From Fragilariopsis cylindrus CCMP1102 (lineage: Eukaryota; Bacillariophyta; Bacillariophyceae; Bacillariales; Bacillariaceae), in the NCBI GenBank assembly GCA_900095095.1, contig FMBT01000434.1:1-64000 (forward strand): a stretch of DNA of 64,000 bases, written 5' to 3'. Below are positions 12,658-60,801 of this stretch, piece after piece. The notes beneath the pieces are model-generated. The model saw only the letters and a program-made list of their open reading frames with translations. It had not been told where the DNA came from and did no database searches. Every line of letters begins with the position of its first letter. Positions within the stretch are counted from its first letter, which is position 1. The position numbers and the translations under genes were made by a program.

Positions 12658-13695
12658 CTATCTAGCTAGAATATCCGCAGCAATCCTCCATTCCTTCAAC
12701 TCTCGTGGTGAAGGACGTCTACCAAGAAGAAACTCGTACTGTCCGGCATTCGTCTTTGCAAACTCGTTTTTTTTGCGTTGACAGAACTTCTTGTGAAGCG
12801 ACCAGTCTTGACGTTGATGATCCTTGCAACAATAGTACACCATCTTGCAACCTGCGCATTTCAAGAGACACTGTGAGGAGCGAGTCTTGTCCTGCACAAC
12901 ATGACAATAATGACAGGATTCCACTTTCTTCGTCGTGCCACCCAATTCCGTAAAATTCCCCGTTTTCTTCCCAGACGCAAGTTCGAGTATTTCTTTTTGT
13001 GCCGAACGGTTATTGGTCAATGCTGTTGCACCAGCATTTTTGACACCGACAGGTTTGACGAGAAGAATTTTGTAATCAGCAATTCCATACAAGCGTGTAG
13101 GTTCAAGCGTTCTAGTACACTTCTTGAAAGTATCTTCAATAGAATCATCCGGCGATACTACAATGCACGCAAGACCAAATAAATCCACCGTTGAGCAATT
13201 GCGCAATGGATGCCCATCCAGGTGCCGTTCGTACAAAAAGTTGAACATTCCTTTTACGTGACCTACCATCGAACGATGGATACCTTCCATTAGCAGTTCG
13301 TGACCACGAACTTCAGTAAACCCACATGTGTAAGCGAAGTATTTCCCTTTATCCCCGCATAAAGTTATTTTAATCCCATTCATCCTAGGAAGCTGGCCTC
13401 GAATCATTCGTCCGTAAGATGCGGGATATGGACGTACTTTCACGTGAGAGTTCATTTGCTTTGCCATCTTCTTTCGAGCCGCTACCCCATTGTTTTTGAT
13501 ATCCTCTAATCTTACGAAATTTGTGACACCGAACTCCTCCAAATACAACTTAAGTTCCACGTAAAATTCGTGCATTTGTTCTAAAGAACACGCTAAAAGA
13601 GCATCTTTCAACGCATCCTGATGCCGATGAGGATTAAGACGTGCCACGTAAAATTCGTGCATTTGTTCTAAAGAACACTGATGAGGATCTACCAT
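12658..13695 (-). CDS. DUF4262 domain + MYND zinc-finger protein
   Basis: From the ATG at 13695 the protein has 345 residues (the frame extends upstream to 13806, but only through a non-ATG codon). The middle (about residues 105-190) resembles DUF4262: 'KYFAYTCGFTEVRGHELLM', a His-containing helix, then 'GHPLRN...LACIVV'. This domain is known mostly from bacteria. The C-terminus (about 262-306) is a MYND finger with Cys pairs 'CHYC' and 'CAGC', then 'YYCCKDHQRQDWSLHKKFC'; such fingers bind proline-rich partners. At the N-terminus 'CSLEQMHEFYV' occurs twice, 29 codons apart. The genomic basis is a near-identical 33-bp sequence at about 13560-13592 and 13647-13679, so this is a recent in-frame duplication. 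The enzymatic role is unknown. Confidence 0.8.
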   Translation of the reverse strand: MVDPHQCSLEQMHEFYVARLNPHRHQDALKDALLACSLEQMHEFYVELKLYLEEFGVTNFVRLEDIKNNGVAARKKMAKQMNSHVKVRPYPASYGRMIRGQLPRMNGIKITLCGDKGKYFAYTCGFTEVRGHELLMEGIHRSMVGHVKGMFNFLYERHLDGHPLRNCSTVDLFGLACIVVSPDDSIEDTFKKCTRTLEPTRLYGIADYKILLVKPVGVKNAGATALTNNRSAQKEILELASGKKTGNFTELGGTTKKVESCHYCHVVQDKTRSSQCLLKCAGCKMVYYCCKDHQRQDWSLHKKFCQRKKNEFAKTNAGQYEFLLGRRPSPRELKEWRIAADILAR

Positions 13696-13892
13696 TGTAT
13701 CCTGTATAATTAGTTGACGATGACAACCACAGCCACAACAAACAATAATTTTATGAGAAAAAGAGGAATGATACTCAAATGATGAAATAAAAATAATACC
13801 GTACAAAACTCATGTCTGATACCCACGGTTTTTCGCGGAACAATAATTAATAACAGTAATTCCTGCTCTTGGAATCTAAAAGCTCTTGCTTG

Positions 13893-17447: not shown

Positions 17448-20400
17448 ATGATGACGACGTCGATGTCATCACCGTTACGAGCTACTGCTACTCCTGCCAA
17501 AAATGTCAACAGTCGTATTCTGCCTTCTTCGTCATCGTCAGTGCCATCTTCGCCACCATCGTCATCTTCGCCACAATCGTCGATATTGAGTACGTCACAG
17601 GTTCATTCAAAGAAGTATACTTTCCCATACAAATTATATGATCTCTTGGTGGACAACACGTCGTCGACTGGAGATGCTTCGTCTCAAGATGTTGTTTCGT
17701 GGTCATCCGATGGGAAAGTTTTCGTTATTAATAACCACAAACGATTTGCTTCTGAGTTATTACCAAAGTACTTCGGTCACAATACTATCAGAAGTTTCGA
17801 ACGTCAAATTCAGTACTGGTCATTCGAAATGGTGTATTCCCCGAATATTAACAACAAATCTTTTGGAGGAAGATCATGGAAACATCCTTTCTTTGAAATG
17901 GGTCGACGAGATTTACTCAAGCACATTGTCTGCACAGAACTGAAAAGTGAAGCTTCCAAGGCAATTCGAGATCTTAAAAAAGGAACAATGGACTGCGACA
18001 ACAATAATGACGGGTGTAACATTAGTAGTAGTAGCGTCTCCGCTGTGAATGTGAATGTGAATGCGAATGCGAATGCGCATGCGAATGGATATTGCATCAA
18101 TAACAATAATGCTATGAATAATGATAATAGTTGTTTATGCTATGGTGAAGAAAAAGAATGTAAATATCTTCATGCCGTAGAAGAACTTAGAAGAAAAGCA
18201 ACAGCCGAAGAAGTAGAGGAAAAGGCAGCAGCGAGAACTTTTAATATTCAAATCCCGACAGTATTGGCTTCATCGCCTTCGATGATCAATCAAGGAATAT
18301 TCTCGCAACTGCATTCCTCGTCATCATTATCAGTCCACACGAAAATAGCTCGAGAACTACAAACAAAATTAGCCATCATCAATGAACAACTGGATATTGT
18401 CTCAAAAAAAGCTCGGGATGCAACGACGGTGACTCTGCAGCAAAAATACAAGGGACTACGCGCATCGTTTGATTTTTCCTTTCTCGACGCTACGAAACAG
18501 AAACTGCAGCAGCAGCAGCAGCAGGAGAAGGAGGAGATCACAGTCGTTCATCCATTATCTGTTAATACAGGTACATCAAAGTCTTCGGCGAAGGTACAAT
18601 CGTTACCACAAGAGGCGGTTGTGTTAATTAATGATGATATTGTCGTCGGATCTGCTTCCAATTGTGCATCGCAATCACAACTTCAAACGATGATATCGCA
18701 ACCCAATATTGTATCACAACTCAATACCAAAACGAATTCATCTCGAAAACAATCTTCGTTTTCGACTGCAGCATCGAGTCAAAATGGAGCAAACGATGAT
18801 ACATATAGTGCGGCTGCTAATCACCTCATCGACCCACCTGTATCATTGGAAAGGGGGTTGGCTGAGACAAGTTTTAGTCACACCACCCCATCGGTAAGTT
18901 CCCAGCAAGCGTCCTCTTTATTTTATACCTACTAATTTATTACACCGCTCACCTCATCAGCTTGCATTGATCAAAAATTATAAAAACTCTAGCAGCAGCA
19001 GCAGCAGCAGCAGCGATTTTCGTCGAAGTTAGCTTTATTATCGTCAGCAACTAAAAAACACCCACCTATATCATCGGAAAGGCGGTTCGTTAGGACAAGT
19101 TTGTCTTCGTCTCCTCCGCCTAATCTGTCTATTCGGGGGAGATTTAAATTGCATTCGCACGACGTTATACTAAACTGGGATAAATTTAATCATAGTGGAA
19201 ATGAATGGTACCGTCAATTGATTGAAAAGGAGCGATCGTCTACCGACGATAAGAAGCCGGTGACCGCAAAAGCTATTGTTCAAGCTGTTCATCAACGAGT
19301 ACCGCACGGAAGATTCCTCAAGTTATCGCTACCATCAAATTACTGGACAGTGGTTCCGAATGAGGAAGCCATTACCAAGACGTTACAAGCGTTACACGAG
19401 CCAAGTCCATATCAACAGGTGCCATCAATACGGTGTAACAAAAGAAGCGTCCGTAATGGAGATGATGGTAACAACCGCGAAGCAATAGATAAGAATATCC
19501 CTCCTATGAAAAAGAGATGTGTTCACGAAGTAACGGCATCTTCAGAACAAAGAAAACTATCGAATCCGTGTCCTCAAGAGACGACGGAAATCGTTCACCA
19601 TGGGATCGGTGTCGAGAACAAAATTTCTTACTATACATTTGAGGACCGATTGACACAGCTTGCTGATTACAAGCAAAATAATGGCGACTGCAATGTTCCT
19701 CAAAACTTTGAAGAATACGGAAACCTCGGTTGTTGGGTTTCCAACCAGAGAAGTCATTACAGGAAATACAAAGAAAGCAAAAAGAGCTCGATGACGAAAC
19801 AACGAATTCGTGCATTGGAAAAGCTTGATTTTGAATGGAAATTGTATCTTACTTTTGAGGAGCGATTGTCACAGCTTGCTGATTACAAGCAAAAGAATGG
19901 CGACTGTAATGTTCCTAGTAGTACTAAAGAATACGGAAACCTCGGTTGTTACGTTAATAGACAGAGAAAAGAATACAAGAAATATAAAGAAAGCAAAAAG
20001 AGCTCGATGACCGAAGTCCGAATTCGTGCATTAGAAAAGCTTGGTTTTAAATGGCACATTTCTCAGTCACTGGAGGAAATAAGACCCATTCCTGAGGGCC
20101 TTTCGTTGCTAAATGAAGTTGCAGTAGTTGGTGCCGACAAAGAACAGCAAACTGAACACGACGATGAAGATCAGCTGTTCAGAGAGAAGAATACCAGCAG
20201 CAGCAGCAGCAAGAACAAGAGCAACATCAACGACGACGATGACGACGATAGTGATAGTAATGTTCTTGGCGCCAACGAAGTTGCAGCTGTAGCTATCCCC
20301 CTTCCTATCCTAGAGCTTCCTCCTGTAGAAACCGTAATTTCTTTCGACGACGAACAACAAACTGAACATAAAGATGATGATCTGCTGCTCGGAAGAAACA

Positions 20401-32538: not shown

Positions 32539-35498
32539 ATGAATAATAATAATTATAATAGTAGAAGAAGTAGTAGTACTTGTAGTAGTAGTGGAAGTGG
32601 TAGTAGAATAATGCAATTGCCTAGGAGTAGTGGAAGAAGAGAAATAGAAAGCGGAAGCGGCGGAAGCACCATCAAAATGGAAGTATCGTTTGCTAACTTA
32701 GGTAAATATCTTTTAAACAAACGAAGGGCACTAAAAAAGAAACAAAAAAAAGAAGAAGAAGAAGATGAAAGAAATCTGCTGAAAAACACCAAAACTGACC
32801 ATGATCATGTGAATGCTGACGCTGATGATGGAGGAGGTGATAGTAGTAATGAAGAGGAAGATGAAGATGAAGGTGAAGGTGAAGGTGAAGAAGATGAAGA
32901 CGACGATGAAGACGACGATGAAGACGACGATGATGGTGAAGATGATTATGATGATGATGATGATTCTATGCAACAAATTACTTTGGAGAATATGAAAGAA
33001 GCCCCTGAAATTGATAAATCGCTCAACAATGATAGGCTGCGGATGCTGTTCAACAACAATAAACCCGATAGTATTATTAATAGGAATAATAGTGATGTTA
33101 CTACTACAAGTATTAATACTAATTATTTGAAAGAATCAAGAAAATCTTTGCTTGCCGGATCAAGAACACCATCATTTAATGTTATGTTACGTGCCAATGA
33201 TTATTATAAAGAAAATATGTGTACAATAAAAACACGGTCAGTAATGCGAATAACTTGGGATGATTTAGAAGAGCAAGATAATATTAATTTTGAAGAAGAA
33301 GAACAACAAAATAATGATGTATTGAACAAAACTAGTTGTATACGCAGTTTCAGTATCAAAAGTCTCGGCAGTAATAGCAGTAGCAGTAACAGTGGTGATG
33401 ACGATGGTGGTAACGACGATGACAATGACATCAATCAAGATAGTGTTAGATCTACTGGTATGTTTCAACTTAGACGTAAAGATAATAGTGCACGGACAAG
33501 TGCATTATGTATCAAGCCAAGTGAAAGTGAAAGAAGTATGTGGTCCTCCACAAGATCAATGGAATTTAATCCAGATTTTTCAAAATTTGTATTAAATGAA
33601 AAGATAAAAGAATGGTTAAAAGCATTTGTAACATGTGATCCACGATATAAAATATTAAAATTCTTTAATGATGTCGCCAATGAGGGAGCAACAGGCGATT
33701 CAAAATCAATTAATAATTTTAAAAGAGATCACATTAGTCCATTATTAAAATTCTTTAATCGATCATCAGTATTTACTGTATGGAGACCAACAAGTATGGA
33801 TGCAATCCGACGTATGATGGTTCGGGAGGGGGTTGGTAAAGGATTAGATATAAAAGGAAAATCAGCAAAATGTGGTATATTATCAGCATTAGTACCATTT
33901 TTACAAATCAACAAGGAAGAACATAAATCAGAAGTACGTACATTACGTAAAGATAGTAAAATACGAATTTTTTTAATACAAAAAAGGATCGTAATACAGT
34001 TGTTACAAAATTAAATGCGTTAGCATTAGAATTACAACAAACTGTGAAAGAAGCAAAAGAAATTAGTAATAGTAAAAGAGATTTAAATTTGTATGATGAA
34101 ACAACAACTGAAAATGCTATGGAAAAATTAATATTAGATATGGATGATACAACTATTGATATAATTGATACATATGCAATAACTGATAACAAATTTGGTA
34201 TTGCTGTACAGGAACGATTATTTTGGGAAGGGATGGTGACACGTCAAAACATAACAAGACAAATTGGTACTCCGAATTATACAGGACGAACATCTATGCC
34301 GAGTTTTCAAGATATGAATTTTACATCATTACGAGCAAAATCTGCTGGTATATTGGGTGATGAAAATACTCGTGCTGTTATTATGCAATATCGTCCACCA
34401 TCAGATAACAATGACGGTAATAATAATGATGATGACTATGATCCGATGTGTCCATTAAATCTTGTTATGGCATATGAAGAAAATAATCCAAACATACATC
34501 GTTTAAGGGTCATCCCTTGTGTAAGTGATTTTGATTGTTTCATGGTTGGTAGTCGTGGTGTAAAGTACAAAGAACAAGTTCCTGAAGAACAACTTGATAT
34601 ATTAAAATGGGGTGTCAACGAAACAGAAAAAATTCTTGCAAATGAAGGTACCGATTCATGGACGGAACGCTGGTTGGACGGACTAAAGGAATGTGCTAGT
34701 AAGGGATTCCAACCGAAAATACCACCGGGTGGGTACAGTGATCCAAAAACTCAATTCATATTTGATCATGCTATTGAAAGATTAAGTTCTACCGGATGTG
34801 TCCGTCATGGTGCGGAATGTTTCAATTATTATTTCCCCCAAGAACTTGATGATAAGTTATTAGTAATTTCAGATGAATTACCGGAAAAATATGAAGGTCG
34901 TAATTGGGCGTATGTCGATCAGTTTGATTTACAAGAAATTCTTTTAGAAAAAATCAAAGTTGGATATACCTTCCCATTAAATCCAAAATGGATTCTTTGT
35001 GATCCAGGTTGGAAGGACGTTTACGAACAATTAATGAAAAGCAATCGACCGAATGTACAAGATTCCTTACAGTGTTGGTACCCACGGGAATCTGGTATCC
35101 GTGAACGTATTGATGACGTATATAATAAGTATCCAAATGGATTTAAACGATTGGAGACCAATATAAATGATGATGAATTCAAAGCACTTAGTTTTGAACA
35201 ACGTCGATCTACAAGATTATCACATGTCGATGGTACTGCTGCGATGGATTTGGCCGAACTAGAATTGAAACACTATCTAATCTTTCAACGTGCTCGTCGA
35301 CGTCTCAAAGCTATTTTGATATTGAAACGTATGCTTGAAGGGATAAGGAAAGAAAAAAAACTGAAAGGAGAACGAGAAGAAGTGCAACAAGAAGAAAACG
35401 TAATAAAAGAAGATCTTCATCACGAAGACGAAGAGCACGAGAGTAGTTATGACAACAACACCGTCACTAGAGAGGTTTCTGCATCAGCGGTATCATAA
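32539..35498 (+). CDS. Stramenopile protein with class II (edema factor/ExoY-type) nucleotidyl-cyclase-like motifs
   Basis: The first ATG is at 32539. The N-terminal ~380 codons are low-complexity (Ser, Asn, Asp/Glu). From about 33550 the sequence is dense and conserved-looking. Motifs follow the order of the CyaA/edema factor/ExoY catalytic core: 'VWRPTS' (cf. 'RPVN') at 33781; 'GKGLDIKGKSAKCG' at 33835 (cf. 'KG.NVKGKSSDWG', two ATP-binding lysines); 'VPFLQI' shortly after; 'SDFDCF' at 34524 (cf. the metal-binding Asp pair 'DYD'); 'VRHGAECFNYYFPQE' at 34800 (cf. 'HGTE..NEEFPE' with catalytic His and Asn). In this sequence the coding is interrupted once, giving two consecutive open frames (to 34014 and from 34044). 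The C-terminus is a basic coiled helix with an acidic end. Assignment by motif only. cGMP, cAMP or other cyclic nucleotides are possible products, and an inactive relative is also possible. Confidence 0.6.
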
Positions 35499-36495: not shown

Positions 36496-39400
36496 ATGAA
36501 TTCATCCTCCGGTTCTGATGCCACTATTGACAAAGAAATCTTTACAGCTCGAGAACAGCTTGAATCCGTTCAAGAGATTTGTGATGTTTATGAAGATAAC
36601 GAGGAGGACTTCACGAATTTCAGTATGAGTGATTTTGACATCGAGGATGCTGTTTCCACGATGGATTCGGTATTCAACAATTCTTATTTTGATGGAGTAA
36701 TGAACGCATTAAATGATAAAATTCCTGATTTCTCGGTAAACGATACCTTACCCGTTTTTTGTGATAAGGTTGATCAAGCCACACAAGTGCTCAACAGTGT
36801 GAATCTCTGTCCATCTGTGGGTAATTTTATCTACAATCCTACCTATTGTGATCCCGGGTACTGGTGTGGATGCTCAGATCCGAAAAAAGGTCAACGATGT
36901 AAACCATCGAATGATACAGATAATAACTTTGGGCTGGTCGTTATACAACTGCCGAATCCGTCATCGATCCAATAACGAATCAATCTACTCCGGGCAAAGC
37001 AGTAGTCTACACTGGATGGGCTTCAAAATTTCCAGATAATTACTTTAAATGTAGTGACACACTGCACTGCCCTGGACGGGAAGGAGGGAACTATATATGT
37101 CCTAGACTATGTAACGAAGGCAATTATTGTCCGCATCCAGATAAGGAATTCACTTGTCCTGTTGGGTCTTACTGTGTGCAGGGTAGTACCGAGCCCATAG
37201 AATGTAGTGGATTACAACTTTGTAACGAGGAAGGAATGAGAAATCCATTGCCTAATTGGTATCTTCTTATAGTCCTCGTCATTGCATTTGTCGCCTTTGG
37301 ATTTGTGGTAATCACGTACCGTTTCTTGAACAAGTTGTTTCCCTTTCAGAAAAAGGAAGGAGGAGGAGGAGAAGAAGAAGAAGATGCTGAAAATCTCGTA
37401 AATAATGCACCTGGTCCTGTTTCTGGTCATGTTACTTCTACTTTCAACACGCCAACGATGTCTGAGAGGCTAGTTAGACAATCTAGAGCAGCCGAGGAGG
37501 AAGAGTTCAATCTGTTGCGACAACCATCTACGCTTACTACACCTAAACAAAGTTTTACAATCGATGTACAGTTCAACAACCTGCAACTTACTTTACCGAA
37601 TGGAATATGCATCATGCAGGGTGTTACTGGAGAATTGCAAGGAGGTCAATTTACAGCAATCATGGGACCGTCGGGGGCTGGAAAGAGGTAATTTTTTTAG
37701 ATTTAGAACATATTATTACGCTAGCAATCAACAATACGACTCCGACAACCACCGATTATCTGATTTCTCCTTTCCGTCGCTTACTTTCTCTTAATTCTTC
37801 CTCTATCTTCTTTTTCTCCTCCAACATAGTACCTTTTTGTCCCTACTTTCTGGTAAGACAGAACCTACCGGAGGTAAACTAACTGTGAATGGAGAGGAGT
37901 CCTCACTTAAGGATTTTCGTGAACTTGTTGGGTTTGTTCCACAGGAAGATATCATGCTTCGTGAGCTGACTGTAGAAGAAAATATTCGACATTCTGCGTT
38001 AATGCGTCTACCAACAGGATTGTCACATAAAGAAAAATGGATCGAGTCTATCAGGTGATGGAAAGTTTAGACCTTCTACATATCAGGAATAGCATCATCG
38101 GTGATGAAATTGTTAGAGGAATCTCTGGTGGACAACGTAAACGAGTGAATGTCGCTATGGAACTTGTTGCCGATCCTTCTCTATTGGCGCTTGACGAGCC
38201 AACATCGGGATTGGATTCTACTACATCGTCTAAGCTGTGCGAGACTCTCTGTCAGCTTGCATTGGCAGGTGGGGTTAACGTTGCCGCTGTTATCCATCAA
38301 CCAAAAATTGAAATATTAGAAAAGTTTACTAATGTACTCCTTTTGGGTGTAGGCGGCAAAACTGTTTATATGGGTCCTACCAAAAACATGACGGATTACT
38401 TTACAGGAATCGGATTTCCGTTACCGTCTCAAATGAATCCTGCTGATTACTACATGGACGTTATCGCTGGCATAATCCCCTGCGAGAATAATCCTAACTT
38501 TAAGAAGGAAGAACTATTCGATTTATGGAATAATTCACCCGAGAATCCAGGTTCGAATCTCGAAGTAGATGACGGCATTAACGAGAATAATACTGTTCCT
38601 CAAAAGATGAAGGGAAAAGCGGAGAAGGCTTTCGGTAGTCTTAAAAAGGCTTTCGGTAATCTTAAAAAGGGACGGCAGAAGAAGTATCGAACGACGCCTG
38701 GTATTGTGGGACAAACATACCTCCTCATGAAGCGCGCTATCTTACAACGATGCCGTGTACCAAGGAATACACTCATACCTTTAATTCTCAGCGCTTCTGC
38801 TGCAGTCTTGATTGGATACTATACTCAAACAATTCAAGTGTATTATTACGGTATTCCAACTGTGTCCACCGATAGATTTAACGCCGCTTTTCAATTTATG
38901 AGAAATCACCCAGTACCTCCCAACGCTGCGATTTCACAGGTGTGGCTATTCACTGCATTGACCATAATGCTTGTTTGTATCGTATCAATCAATACTTTCG
39001 GCTTAGAAAAGCGGTTTTTCTACGAGAAGCATTTAGTGGTACAAACCCTACATCTGTAAGTTTTCTCCGCCTTATGGTGTTTATTTCCTTTTTCATGTTT
39101 GCATATTTGTTGTTGTTGTTGTTGTTGTTGTTGTATAATCCTTCTCAAAATTTTGTTTCCGTTTGACTCTCTCTCCCCCTTTCATTTATTGGTATCGCAA
39201 TAGTATTGGTTTGCGAAAACGTTAGAAGCAGGTTTGTGGTTACCACTTTATTCTGCCCTGTATGTTGTCGTTGCCGATATATTCAGACCACTTCCAATTC
39301 TGATATCATCATTCTGGCTTGTGGTATGGACGTCAATGATTGGATTTTCGGGAGTTGGACATATCGTTTCACTATCAATTCCAGCAACCAATCGTGGTAT

Positions 39401-42904: not shown

Positions 42905-44575
42905 ATGAGAATAAAGATCCAACAAAACATCCTTCATTTGCTTCTCGTTGCAAATGTTGCAGAAGCATTTCGTGTTGGAAGCAGTAATAATGCGCTAACA
43001 AGAGTAACGTCCTTGCACTCCTCGACAACCGACGACCAAGATGCGAAACCGATCGCCGCCGCCGCGGTAGTGCCCAAGGTGGTGAAGAAGGAAAAGCGCT
43101 TCTACATCAAAAATGAGCGAGAGAATATTGCCAAAAAGAAAGACTTTTTACGTGGGTCCGGTGTGTTCCGAAACGTCAAGGCGGAAGTGACAGAAGATAT
43201 GAGACAACAATTCGATTCCGAAATGATGAACGAAATGAAAGATACACCCAACTACATGGTCGAACGGGATGGAGTGGAATTTTTCCTCGCCAAAGATCAT
43301 GGTTTTTGTTGGGGCGTAGAACGATCGATCAATCTAGCCTACAGTGCGGTGGAAACATTCCCCGAATCCAAAGTGCACATCACGAATGAATTAATTCACA
43401 ACCCGATGGTCAACGATCGGTTGCATAGCAAGAATGTGAACTTCATACAAAAGGACGAAGATAACAACAAGGACTTTACACAGATCAAAGAAGGTGATGT
43501 TGTGATGTTGCCGGCGTTCGGAGCCACGCTGGACGAGATGAAGTAAGTTTTCTTTTTTGCTGTTTGCCACCACCGGCAAACTAACTGTATGGAATGAATG
43601 AATTCAATAATGTAAATCTAATTTCTGATATCTTTTGTCTTGATCGTTTTTTCTTTTGGTAGGTTATTGGATGAGAAAAATGTCAAGGTGGTGGACACAA
43701 CGTGCCCTTGGGTAGCTAAGGTTTGGAATACCGTCCATACGCATCAAGTTCGTGGCCTGACATCTGTCATCCACGGCAAGTACGCCCACGAGGAAACCAT
43801 GGCTACGAAGTCCATGGCCGAAACCTACATCTGCGTCAAAGATGTCGAAGAGGCCGTGTACCTCGCCGATTTCATCCTGACCGCCGAGGAGGGAGACGAC
43901 GGTCGCAAGAAAGAATTCATGGAAAAGTTTTCCAAATCTTGTAGTTCCCATTTTGATCCTCACAAACATTTGCAAAAGATTGGTCTCGCCAATCAAACGA
44001 CGATGTACAAGAAGGAGACGAGGGCGATCGGTCAGTTGTTGCAAAAGACAATCATGTCGAAATTCGGACCGGATCTGATCAACGAGCATTACTACGAGTT
44101 CGATACCATTTGTGACGCGACACAGGTCCGACAAGACGCCGTCGACGAATTGTGTAATATGCACGATGATGCACAACAGCCCTCTCTCGATTTTATACTG
44201 GTGGTGGGAGGATTTGATTCTTCCAACACGTGTCATCTTCTTGAAATTCCGCAAATGCGGGGCGTGACGTCCTATCACATCAACGCCGCCGACTGCATCC
44301 AGGCAGAGAACAAAATTCGACATCGAACCGTCGCGGGGGATGTCATCGAGGACGAGGGTCCCTTCCTGACGGAGGATATGCTGTGGTCGACTGATCAGGA
44401 AACTGGCGAAAAAACGAAAAATCTGCTTCGTGTTGGCGTGACGAGTGGTGCCTCAACGCCCGACAAGGAAGTCCAAGATGCTCTGGGAAGGATTATGATG
44501 CTCAACAAACTCAGTGAAGCGGGAATCGAACTAGGAGGAGAAAAGGAATCGGAATTATTAAAAGAAGCGCAGTAA
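42905..44575 (+). CDS. ispH/HDR: 4-hydroxy-3-methylbut-2-enyl diphosphate reductase (last MEP-pathway step), plastid
   Basis: This [4Fe-4S] enzyme makes IPP and DMAPP in the plastid. It has 516 residues. The N-terminus is a signal peptide ending 'NVAEAFRV', with the A-F plastid motif. Cluster cysteines are seen in 'DHGFCWGVERSINLA', 'DTTCPWVAKVWN' and 'TICDATQVRQDAVDEL'. Substrate-binding histidines lie in 'ELIHNP' and 'GKYAHEETMATKS'; 'SSNTCHLLEIP' is the late Ser/Asn motif. The long form with 'TICDATQ.RQDA' is the cyanobacterial/plant type. One intron (43543-43662, 120 bp, GTAAGT...GGTAG) joins 'LDEMK' to 'LLDEKNVKVVDTTCPW'. Exons are GC-richer and less repetitive than the neighbours, as expected for a highly expressed gene. 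Confidence 0.93.
43543..43662 (+). other. Intron of HDR
   Basis: GTAAGT donor and TTTTGGTAG acceptor, 120 bp; splicing gives 1551 coding bases exactly in frame. Confidence 0.85.
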
Positions 44576-59472: not shown

Positions 59473-60801
59473 ATGAATCACAGAAATGGTAGCGCAACAA
59501 CGACAATTTATGGTAGCGGTAATTTTGTTGCCGAAACGGTAGAACTCGAGCGTATTCCTCTGACCAGCAGTAATGCGGAAGATATGCATATATATCACGA
59601 CGCGATGATTGACGATGATGGTGATGGGGATGATTATGATCATGATTATGAAGGTGACGATCATGATCATGATCACGAGTATGATGATGATGATGATGAC
59701 GACGGTACGATGTATTGTTCGTGGAAGGTATATCTTACATCATACAGATTCATTGAATTGAATATTTGTTTCTGGCCTTGTCTATTGATCGTTTTGTATC
59801 TAGATTATATCTACTATCAACCAAGAGAACGACCTATACCATATGAACATTTGGGAATGTCAGGAGGAATAGGAACAAATACTGCAAGTAGTAGTGGTAC
59901 AAGTACCGTTAGAAACAACGCCGGCGGTAACGACGACAACGACGAAGATACCAGAGAAAAATCATTATACTCATATCCAAATACTGTTTGGAATCTTGTT
60001 AACAGTGAAAAATTTCTAGGTGATACAATTTCAAGTACTGAATGTAAATTATATGCTCTAATTTTACCATTAATGTTACAATTATTTATGGTATGGTTTC
60101 TATGGATCCTTCCTCCTGGTAGTAATCCTGTTGCGACTGCGACTGCTGTCAACAATAGCAATAACAAGAACAACAACAATAATAATAGATCAGGTAATAA
60201 TAGTAACAGCACTGATATAGGTCTATTCCATCGATGGGATGCCATCCATAAAACAATTTGTGTCTACTCTGTTGGATTTGGAGTAACGGAAGTTATAACT
60301 TGCTCTGTCAAATACTATGTGGGATATCTGCGACCAATATTTCTAGATATCTGTCAACCCTATTACGATGCTAGTAGTAGTGACGGTGAAGGTGGTGGTG
60401 GTGAGTTCCGTTGTACGGACGAGTATGAAGCAAAAGGTGCAAGAATAAGTTTTCCATCGAATCATGCTAGTGGGAGCTTTTGTGGGATGCTTTTATTATC
60501 ATTATATTTAGAACAGTGTTTCCGTACAATTCTTACACATCCAACAATAGCAACCAAAAAAAACTTATTACGGAGGAATAAATTGCGACGACGCCAACAA
60601 CAAATACAGGATCATGCCAAAAAAGGCCTTCAAAGACTTGTATCACTTTTTTGTTACACACCAATGTTATTTGCAGTTTTTATAGCAGCAAGCCGTGTTG
60701 TTGACAATAGACATTTCCCCGCAGATGTGGTTGGTGGTGCCGTTTTAGGCGCATCTATTGCATCATTAGTTTTCAATATTTGGTACGTTATTCCATTATA
60801 A
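59473..60801 (+). CDS. PAP2-family lipid phosphate phosphatase
   Basis: 442 residues from the ATG at 59473, no intron. The three PAP2 motifs are complete: 'KYYVGYLRP' (KxxxxxxRP), 'SFPSNHASGSF' (PSxH with Asn in place of the usual Gly) and 'SRVVDNRHFPADVVGGAVLG' (SRxxxxxHxxxD). The nucleophile His and its partner are in the last two. About six membrane helices are visible, with a Ser/Asn-rich loop between the first two. An acidic Asp/His-rich N-terminal tail precedes them. The family removes phosphate from phosphatidic acid and related lipids, so it could supply diacylglycerol. A basic insertion of about 35 residues sits between motifs 2 and 3. Confidence 0.88.
   Translation: MNHRNGSATTTIYGSGNFVAETVELERIPLTSSNAEDMHIYHDAMIDDDGDGDDYDHDYEGDDHDHDHEYDDDDDDDGTMYCSWKVYLTSYRFIELNICFWPCLLIVLYLDYIYYQPRERPIPYEHLGMSGGIGTNTASSSGTSTVRNNAGGNDDNDEDTREKSLYSYPNTVWNLVNSEKFLGDTISSTECKLYALILPLMLQLFMVWFLWILPPGSNPVATATAVNNSNNKNNNNNNRSGNNSNSTDIGLFHRWDAIHKTICVYSVGFGVTEVITCSVKYYVGYLRPIFLDICQPYYDASSSDGEGGGGEFRCTDEYEAKGARISFPSNHASGSFCGMLLLSLYLEQCFRTILTHPTIATKKNLLRRNKLRRRQQQIQDHAKKGLQRLVSLFCYTPMLFAVFIAASRVVDNRHFPADVVGGAVLGASIASLVFNIWYVIPL

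Follow-up and report, generated by a model that had tools for sequence, protein, structure and literature searches.

Class II nucleotidyl cyclases, the group of edema factor, CyaA and ExoY, are treated in the accessible portions of two papers as bacterial toxins that await a eukaryotic cofactor (PMC9223806, PMC10553838), and the abstract of an older survey restricts four of six cyclase classes to prokaryotes (PMC2447327). The portion of PMC10553838 drawn on here states that a pair of aspartates and a switch-B histidine, all three invariant, bind the metals in class II enzymes, reports that replacement of the lysines equivalent to edema factor K346 and K353 abolishes or lowers activity, and presents the lysine pair, the aspartate pair and the histidine as essential or important in the ExoY-type cyclases. 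A likeness to edema factor has also been described among algae. In the part of a 2023 Nature paper that surrounds its Fig. 5b (PMC10584675), an "Anthrax_toxA-like" cluster is unannotated, enriched in eukaryotes and contains several algal proteins, the predicted structures of which partially match edema-factor-type domains and for which similar toxin systems are suggested as a possibility. Thus, as far as that part of the paper goes, the resemblance itself is already in print. The genes described below share with this partially described cluster a eukaryotic, algal origin and a likeness to edema factor; the two are likened here by description, which does not imply that our gene is a member. Among the matches listed by our searches of the open-access literature, we recognised none on the catalytic residues of such diatom proteins, their fusion to DEP domains or their activity.

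The gene that drew our attention, gene A, lies in a 64,000-nucleotide stretch of the genome of the diatom Fragilariopsis cylindrus CCMP1102 (contig FMBT01000434.1, positions 1 to 64,000), the whole of which is called the window here. Comparison of its product with edema factor (PF03497; PDB 1pk0, 1k8t, 1xfv) reveals the same motif order, R-P, K-x4-[HK]-x-K-S, P-F-x-Q, D-x-D and H-G-x-E-x2-N, with the same spacing within each motif as in the edema factor catalytic domain. However, there are differences between the two systems. The diatom genes are eukaryotic and chromosomal, a lysine occupies the position of edema factor H351, insertions separate the conserved blocks, and the diatom proteins carry either a DEP array or a low-complexity N terminus. 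They likewise differ from the ExoY-type cyclases, which are actin-activated bacterial effectors.

The original prediction had placed five motifs of this type, in order, in a gene spanning 33550..34900. All five are indeed present on the plus strand in the order given, but they are split over two reading frames, and the conserved domain is longer than proposed, extending over about 33601-35156 as judged by its match to a paralog (Table 1). The RPTS, GKGLDIKGKS and VPFLQI motifs share one frame, which ends at a stop at 34012-34014, while SDFD and RHGAECFN lie in another, which we traced from 34002 to 35498 and translated as P0001. Motif coordinates were counted by hand from the sequence, and the ATG at 32539 was assumed to be the start from the alignment with a second copy of the gene, L002.

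Table 1. Features of gene A in the window and their relation to edema factor and to the other copies of the family
Feature	Position	Strand	Remarks
Gene A, window copy	32539..35498	+	Low-complexity N terminus, class II-cyclase-like domain, basic C-terminal tail; frame broken near 33968
N-terminal region	32539..33549	+	Low-complexity; acid-, serine- and asparagine-rich
Cyclase-like domain, N-terminal part	33601..33978	+	As matched by paralog B, 54% identity
RPTS motif (Arg of R-P)	33784..33795	+	Arg, Pro and Ser invariant in three paralogs
GKGLDIKGKS	33835..33864	+	Corresponds to K346, H351 (replaced by Lys) and K353 of edema factor and the Ser that follows
VPFLQI (P-F-x-Q motif)	33892..33909	+	P, F and Q invariant in three paralogs; aligns with edema factor P-F-x-Q
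T run	33968..33974	+	Frame lost relative to L002; alignment of copy against copy
Second frame, rest of cyclase-like domain	34002..35156	+	97% identical to L002; 44-45% to paralogs (matched parts)
SDFD	34524..34535	+	D-F-D at 34527..34535 is the proposed metal site
RHGAECFN	34803..34826	+	Its His and Asn correspond to H577 and N583 of edema factor
C-terminal tail	35157..35498	+	Contains a basic amphipathic stretch (L002 protein, residues 916-933)

The second copy of gene A clarifies the broken frame. L002, on contig C303, shares 97% identity with the window copy over P0001 and has an open frame of 990 codons, and direct alignment of the two copies reveals a one-base difference at the T run that starts at 33968. 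The break in the window copy may be an allele or an assembly error. An intron with GT..AG ends nearby would restore the frame as well; this reading was set aside because the frame runs uninterrupted across the equivalent stretch in both L002 and paralog B. In the cyclase-like domain the gene A copies differ by 16 synonymous and 20 non-synonymous bases over 515 codons (132 + 383), compared with 22 synonymous and 69 non-synonymous over 314 aligned codons of the N-terminal region. Although these are raw counts rather than per-site rates, and the evidence they provide is weak, the smaller number of non-synonymous differences in the domain suggests that it is under constraint between the copies. 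The N-terminal region also contains a long run of acidic codons at window 32860-32970, near which the copies show several length differences.

Whole-genome searches (67.9 Mb in 818 contigs), in which P0001 and two paralogous domains served as queries, revealed a family of at least three loci and two decayed pieces, a count that is a lower bound because scoring covered the best candidates only. Locus A is found on C517, the contig of the window, and C303, locus B on C79, and locus C on C312 and, in broken frames, on C699. The three paralog domains are 41-46% identical to one another. In paralog C (L004:256-3348) a long acidic, alanine-rich insertion separates the K-G..G-K-S and D-x-D blocks, and it is at this insertion region that the C699 copy is split into several frames. 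The decayed pieces, L006 (C505:11089-11292) and L007 (C442:72668-72943), have in-frame stops but retain S-D-F-D. Downstream of each come flavodoxin-like frames that are near-identical by eye, which suggests that the pieces are two copies of a single remnant. The paired copies of gene A, and likewise those of gene C, look like haplotypes that the assembly left separate.

That gene A belongs to the diatom host, as originally proposed, is supported by the silicon transporters found in the same genome, with E-values down to 1.1e-226; only 1 of 14 control genomes, a bacterium, gave a match to these, below the cut-off. Bacterial contamination was rejected because of these transporters, the paired copies and the DEP array described below. 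The window around gene A holds further recognisable genes. Downstream, at 38037-39059, is a frame for an ABC transporter that includes an ABC-2 membrane part (PF00005, PF19055), to which the open frames at 36496 and 37176 that precede it may belong, and Pfam matches identified a MYND-finger gene (12658-13806), a heat-shock-factor-type DNA-binding gene (17448-18935), a LytB (IspH) gene (43640-44575) and a PAP2 gene (59473-60801). Relatives of the family were absent from viral_contigs when searched by protein, by profile and by two back-translated DNA patterns, from genome_contigs when searched by profile and by back-translated DNA pattern, from phages at E-values up to 0.01 and from plasmids at E-values up to 1. 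As the back-translated patterns are narrow, this absence of outside relatives is weak evidence. The single pattern match in viral_contigs, L008, was judged a chance hit; by eye, the open frames that flank it appear unrelated.

Profile searches against the PDB, with significance given by HMMER E-values, connect the family to edema factor. A profile of the three paralogs matched edema factor at E-values of 8.9e-5 and 9.1e-5, with everything else at 0.8 or above, and a five-row profile, two of whose rows come from the window copy and hardly differ from L002, matched it at 8.2e-5, 9.3e-5 and 3.2e-4, with the next match at 0.26. Edema factor was thus the sole PDB match below 0.001 for both profiles. 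In both cases co-linear stretches superpose the R-P, K-G..G-K-S, P-F-x-Q and D-x-D motifs on those of edema factor, and the second stretch of the five-row profile places D-F-D on edema factor D-Y-D and H-G-x-E-x2-N on its counterpart. A profile of the N-terminal block alone matched edema factor at 0.0012-0.0018, among 19 PDB matches that included a "Putative Adenylate cyclase" in two entries, 8bjj (0.77) and 8bji (1.1), which we take to be Vibrio ExoY. HMG-box proteins (0.17-0.53) ranked between edema factor and 8bjj, and the match to this ExoY-type cyclase is not significant alone. CyaA and Pseudomonas ExoY were absent from the PDB profile searches at E-values up to 10. As a single sequence, the window piece 33550-33957 gave no more than a hint: it found five distinct edema factor chains (0.076-0.11), which were all of its PDB matches at E-values up to 10.

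Matches to the Pfam family of these enzymes are weaker. All three paralog domains matched PF03497 at E-values up to 10, the best at 0.0025, and full-length paralogs B and C scored 17.9 and 17.8 bits. No match to PF03497 reached its curated threshold (25 bits). The L002 domain matched PF03497 at 0.14, outranked by the unrelated DUF603 at 0.023, and window 33100-34011 reached 13.6 bits against the cut-off of 25, with an ENT domain at equal score. No Pfam match was obtained for the full L002 protein at E-values up to 1, and no PF03497 match for P0001 at values up to 10. A six-frame search of the genome with PF03497 gave no match, but as the control for that search also gave none anywhere, this negative is uninformative. 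Searches of NCBIfam and PHROGs gave weak matches, none of them to a cyclase. The assignment to class II is supported at the level of sequence homology, with a profile E-value of about 8e-5 and co-linear blocks, but not by the curated Pfam threshold. Because significance, motif order and exact residues agree, we consider it very probable, on the sequences at hand, that the diatom family is homologous to the catalytic domains of class II cyclases.

The residues that class II enzymes use in catalysis are retained throughout the family. All three paralog domains contain R-P, K-x4-K-x-K-S, P-F-x-Q, D-x-D and H-G-x-E-x2-N, and, in the numbering of L002:1093-2685, the aspartate pair corresponds to D317 and D319 and the switch-B histidine to H410. 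Diatom K82 and K89 correspond to K346 and K353 of edema factor, K87 stands at the H351 position, and the K-x4-[H/K]-x-K spacing is identical in the two proteins. We take edema factor D491 and D493 to be the counterparts of the D-x-D pair, and R329, S354 and N583 those of diatom R64, S90 and N416; at what is presumably the E588 position, the diatom domain has a glutamine at +11 from the histidine and a glutamate at +12. The lysine, aspartate and histidine/asparagine positions, whose loss among orthologues had been named as one of two refuting observations, are invariant in all three paralogs within this genome, and the lysine pair, aspartate pair and histidine are the same residues as in the ExoY-type cyclases. 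Among the three paralogs all nine predicted active-site columns are invariant, compared with 147 of 466 ungapped columns overall. This would have a probability of 2.6e-5 if columns were independent, a guide figure only; as the paralogs are mutually related, their agreement does not count as independent evidence.

Taken together, these data indicate that gene A and its paralogs probably encode native, intracellular class II-type nucleotidyl cyclases that would make a cyclic nucleotide. The core of these proteins would be a distant homologue of the edema factor/CyaA/ExoY catalytic domain and is predicted to convert an NTP to a cyclic nucleotide with the two-metal chemistry of those enzymes. Metal binding would fall to the D-x-D pair and the switch-B-type histidine, and triphosphate binding to the lysines of K-x4-K-x-K-S. 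In class II cyclases the asparagine that follows H-G-x-E positions the ribose, and the diatom asparagine would do likewise. An alternative, which we regard as unlikely, is that the family shares the fold but does another job: it may have become a pseudo-enzyme, sense NTPs or catalyse some other nucleotidyl transfer. The lysine at the H351 position, the large low-complexity insertions in paralog C and the similarity beyond the N-terminal block, which is too weak for detection alone, would fit such a role. Pseudo-enzymes, however, usually lose some catalytic residues, and here nine of nine such positions are invariant in paralogs that are only 41-46% identical.

It might also be argued that an unrelated diatom family has acquired similar short motifs by convergence or chance. 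Predicted structures speak neither for nor against the class II fold, with its active site between the CA and CB lobes: AlphaFold models of the L002 domain, built with three sequences, and of the L003 domain, built with five, had mean pLDDT values of only 38.8 and 41.7, and a Foldseek search of the PDB with the low-confidence L003 model (pLDDT 41.7) returned nothing at an E-value of 0.001 or better. Moreover, no single HMMER stretch fell below an i-Evalue of 0.001, the best being 0.025 and 0.046 for the long profiles and 0.0048 for the short one, and the C-terminal half alone, which contains D-x-D and H-G..N, found no cyclase in the PDB profile search. Against these points stand the full-profile E-value of about 8e-5 with co-linear blocks and the rarity of the motifs. 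When each of the three paralog proteins was shuffled 20,000 times, the complete ordered pattern never appeared; K-G..G-K-S alone turned up in 0.01-0.045% of the shuffled sequences, and D-x-D with a later H-G-x-[DE]-x2-N in 0.1-0.4%. Among the 328 stop-to-stop stretches of at least 60 residues in the window, K-G..G-K-S and D-x-D/H-G-x-[DE]-x2-N occur once each, both in gene A. A structural match for algal proteins, not shown to be these ones, is also in print in the available part of PMC10584675. Convergence or a chance origin of the motifs thus appears very improbable.

The regions outside the conserved domain differ between the paralogs and bear on how native cyclases of this kind might be controlled. 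DEP domains are intracellular eukaryotic signalling modules that elsewhere serve in recruitment to membranes or receptors. Paralog B has five of them (PF00610), above the cut-off with an E-value of 1.7e-93, ahead of its cyclase-like domain, and a sixth, recognised by eye, is split in the present assembly by an in-frame stop at L012:4260-4262 (C79), which may be an allele, an assembly error or a real truncation. The cyclase-like domain begins about 120 residues past this sixth DEP domain, on the same strand and in a shared frame that is open except for the one stop. Gene A has instead an N terminus, originally proposed to be disordered, of about 340 low-complexity residues and, in its C-terminal tail, a basic amphipathic stretch; other stretches of the L002 protein exceed residues 916-933 in helical moment, and a calmodulin-type role for the tail is speculation. 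The host enzymes would be switched on by signals of the cell itself, in paralog B putatively through the DEP array and in gene A perhaps through the low-complexity N terminus or the basic C-terminal stretch. The domain could instead be an algal toxin or defence weapon delivered into other cells. The available part of PMC10584675 raises similar toxin systems in algae as a possibility, and edema factor, the best-matching relative, is a toxin, yet for this family we find that reading very improbable: gene A and paralog B have no signal peptide evident by eye, their starts being polar and Ser- or Asn-rich, and the DEP domains joined to paralog B are easier to reconcile with native signalling than with secretion as a toxin.

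A native class II-type cyclase would not be the only cyclase in this diatom. The genome contains ordinary class III cyclases, with 34 pieces matching PF00211, a count in which exons and copies are separate entries (best E-value, 4.8e-47), and PF00211 was not among the Pfam matches of the family proteins at E-values up to 10, or up to 1 for full-length proteins. Class III adenylyl and guanylyl cyclases differ in fold from class II, and the presumed product of the diatom family would be the same. The fold, intracellular location, catalysis, product and regulation of the gene A family are deduced from these comparisons. With that footing, we suggest tentatively that diatoms own a native class II cyclase family for cell signalling, with one gene under DEP control, and that it shares an ancestor with the bacterial toxins.

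If so, class II cyclases would have a branch encoded by the host, linked to DEP domains and complete in its catalytic residues. The enzyme class would then belong to the normal signalling of eukaryotes, which would speak against the toxin systems that the available part of PMC10584675 offers as a reading of algal structures. Such a branch would also offer a testable reason for the toxins being tuned to eukaryotic cofactors and would raise the question of which way the descent ran, from eukaryotic enzyme to toxin or from toxin to eukaryotic enzyme. For diatoms themselves, the family may represent a second source of cyclic nucleotides beside the class III cyclases.
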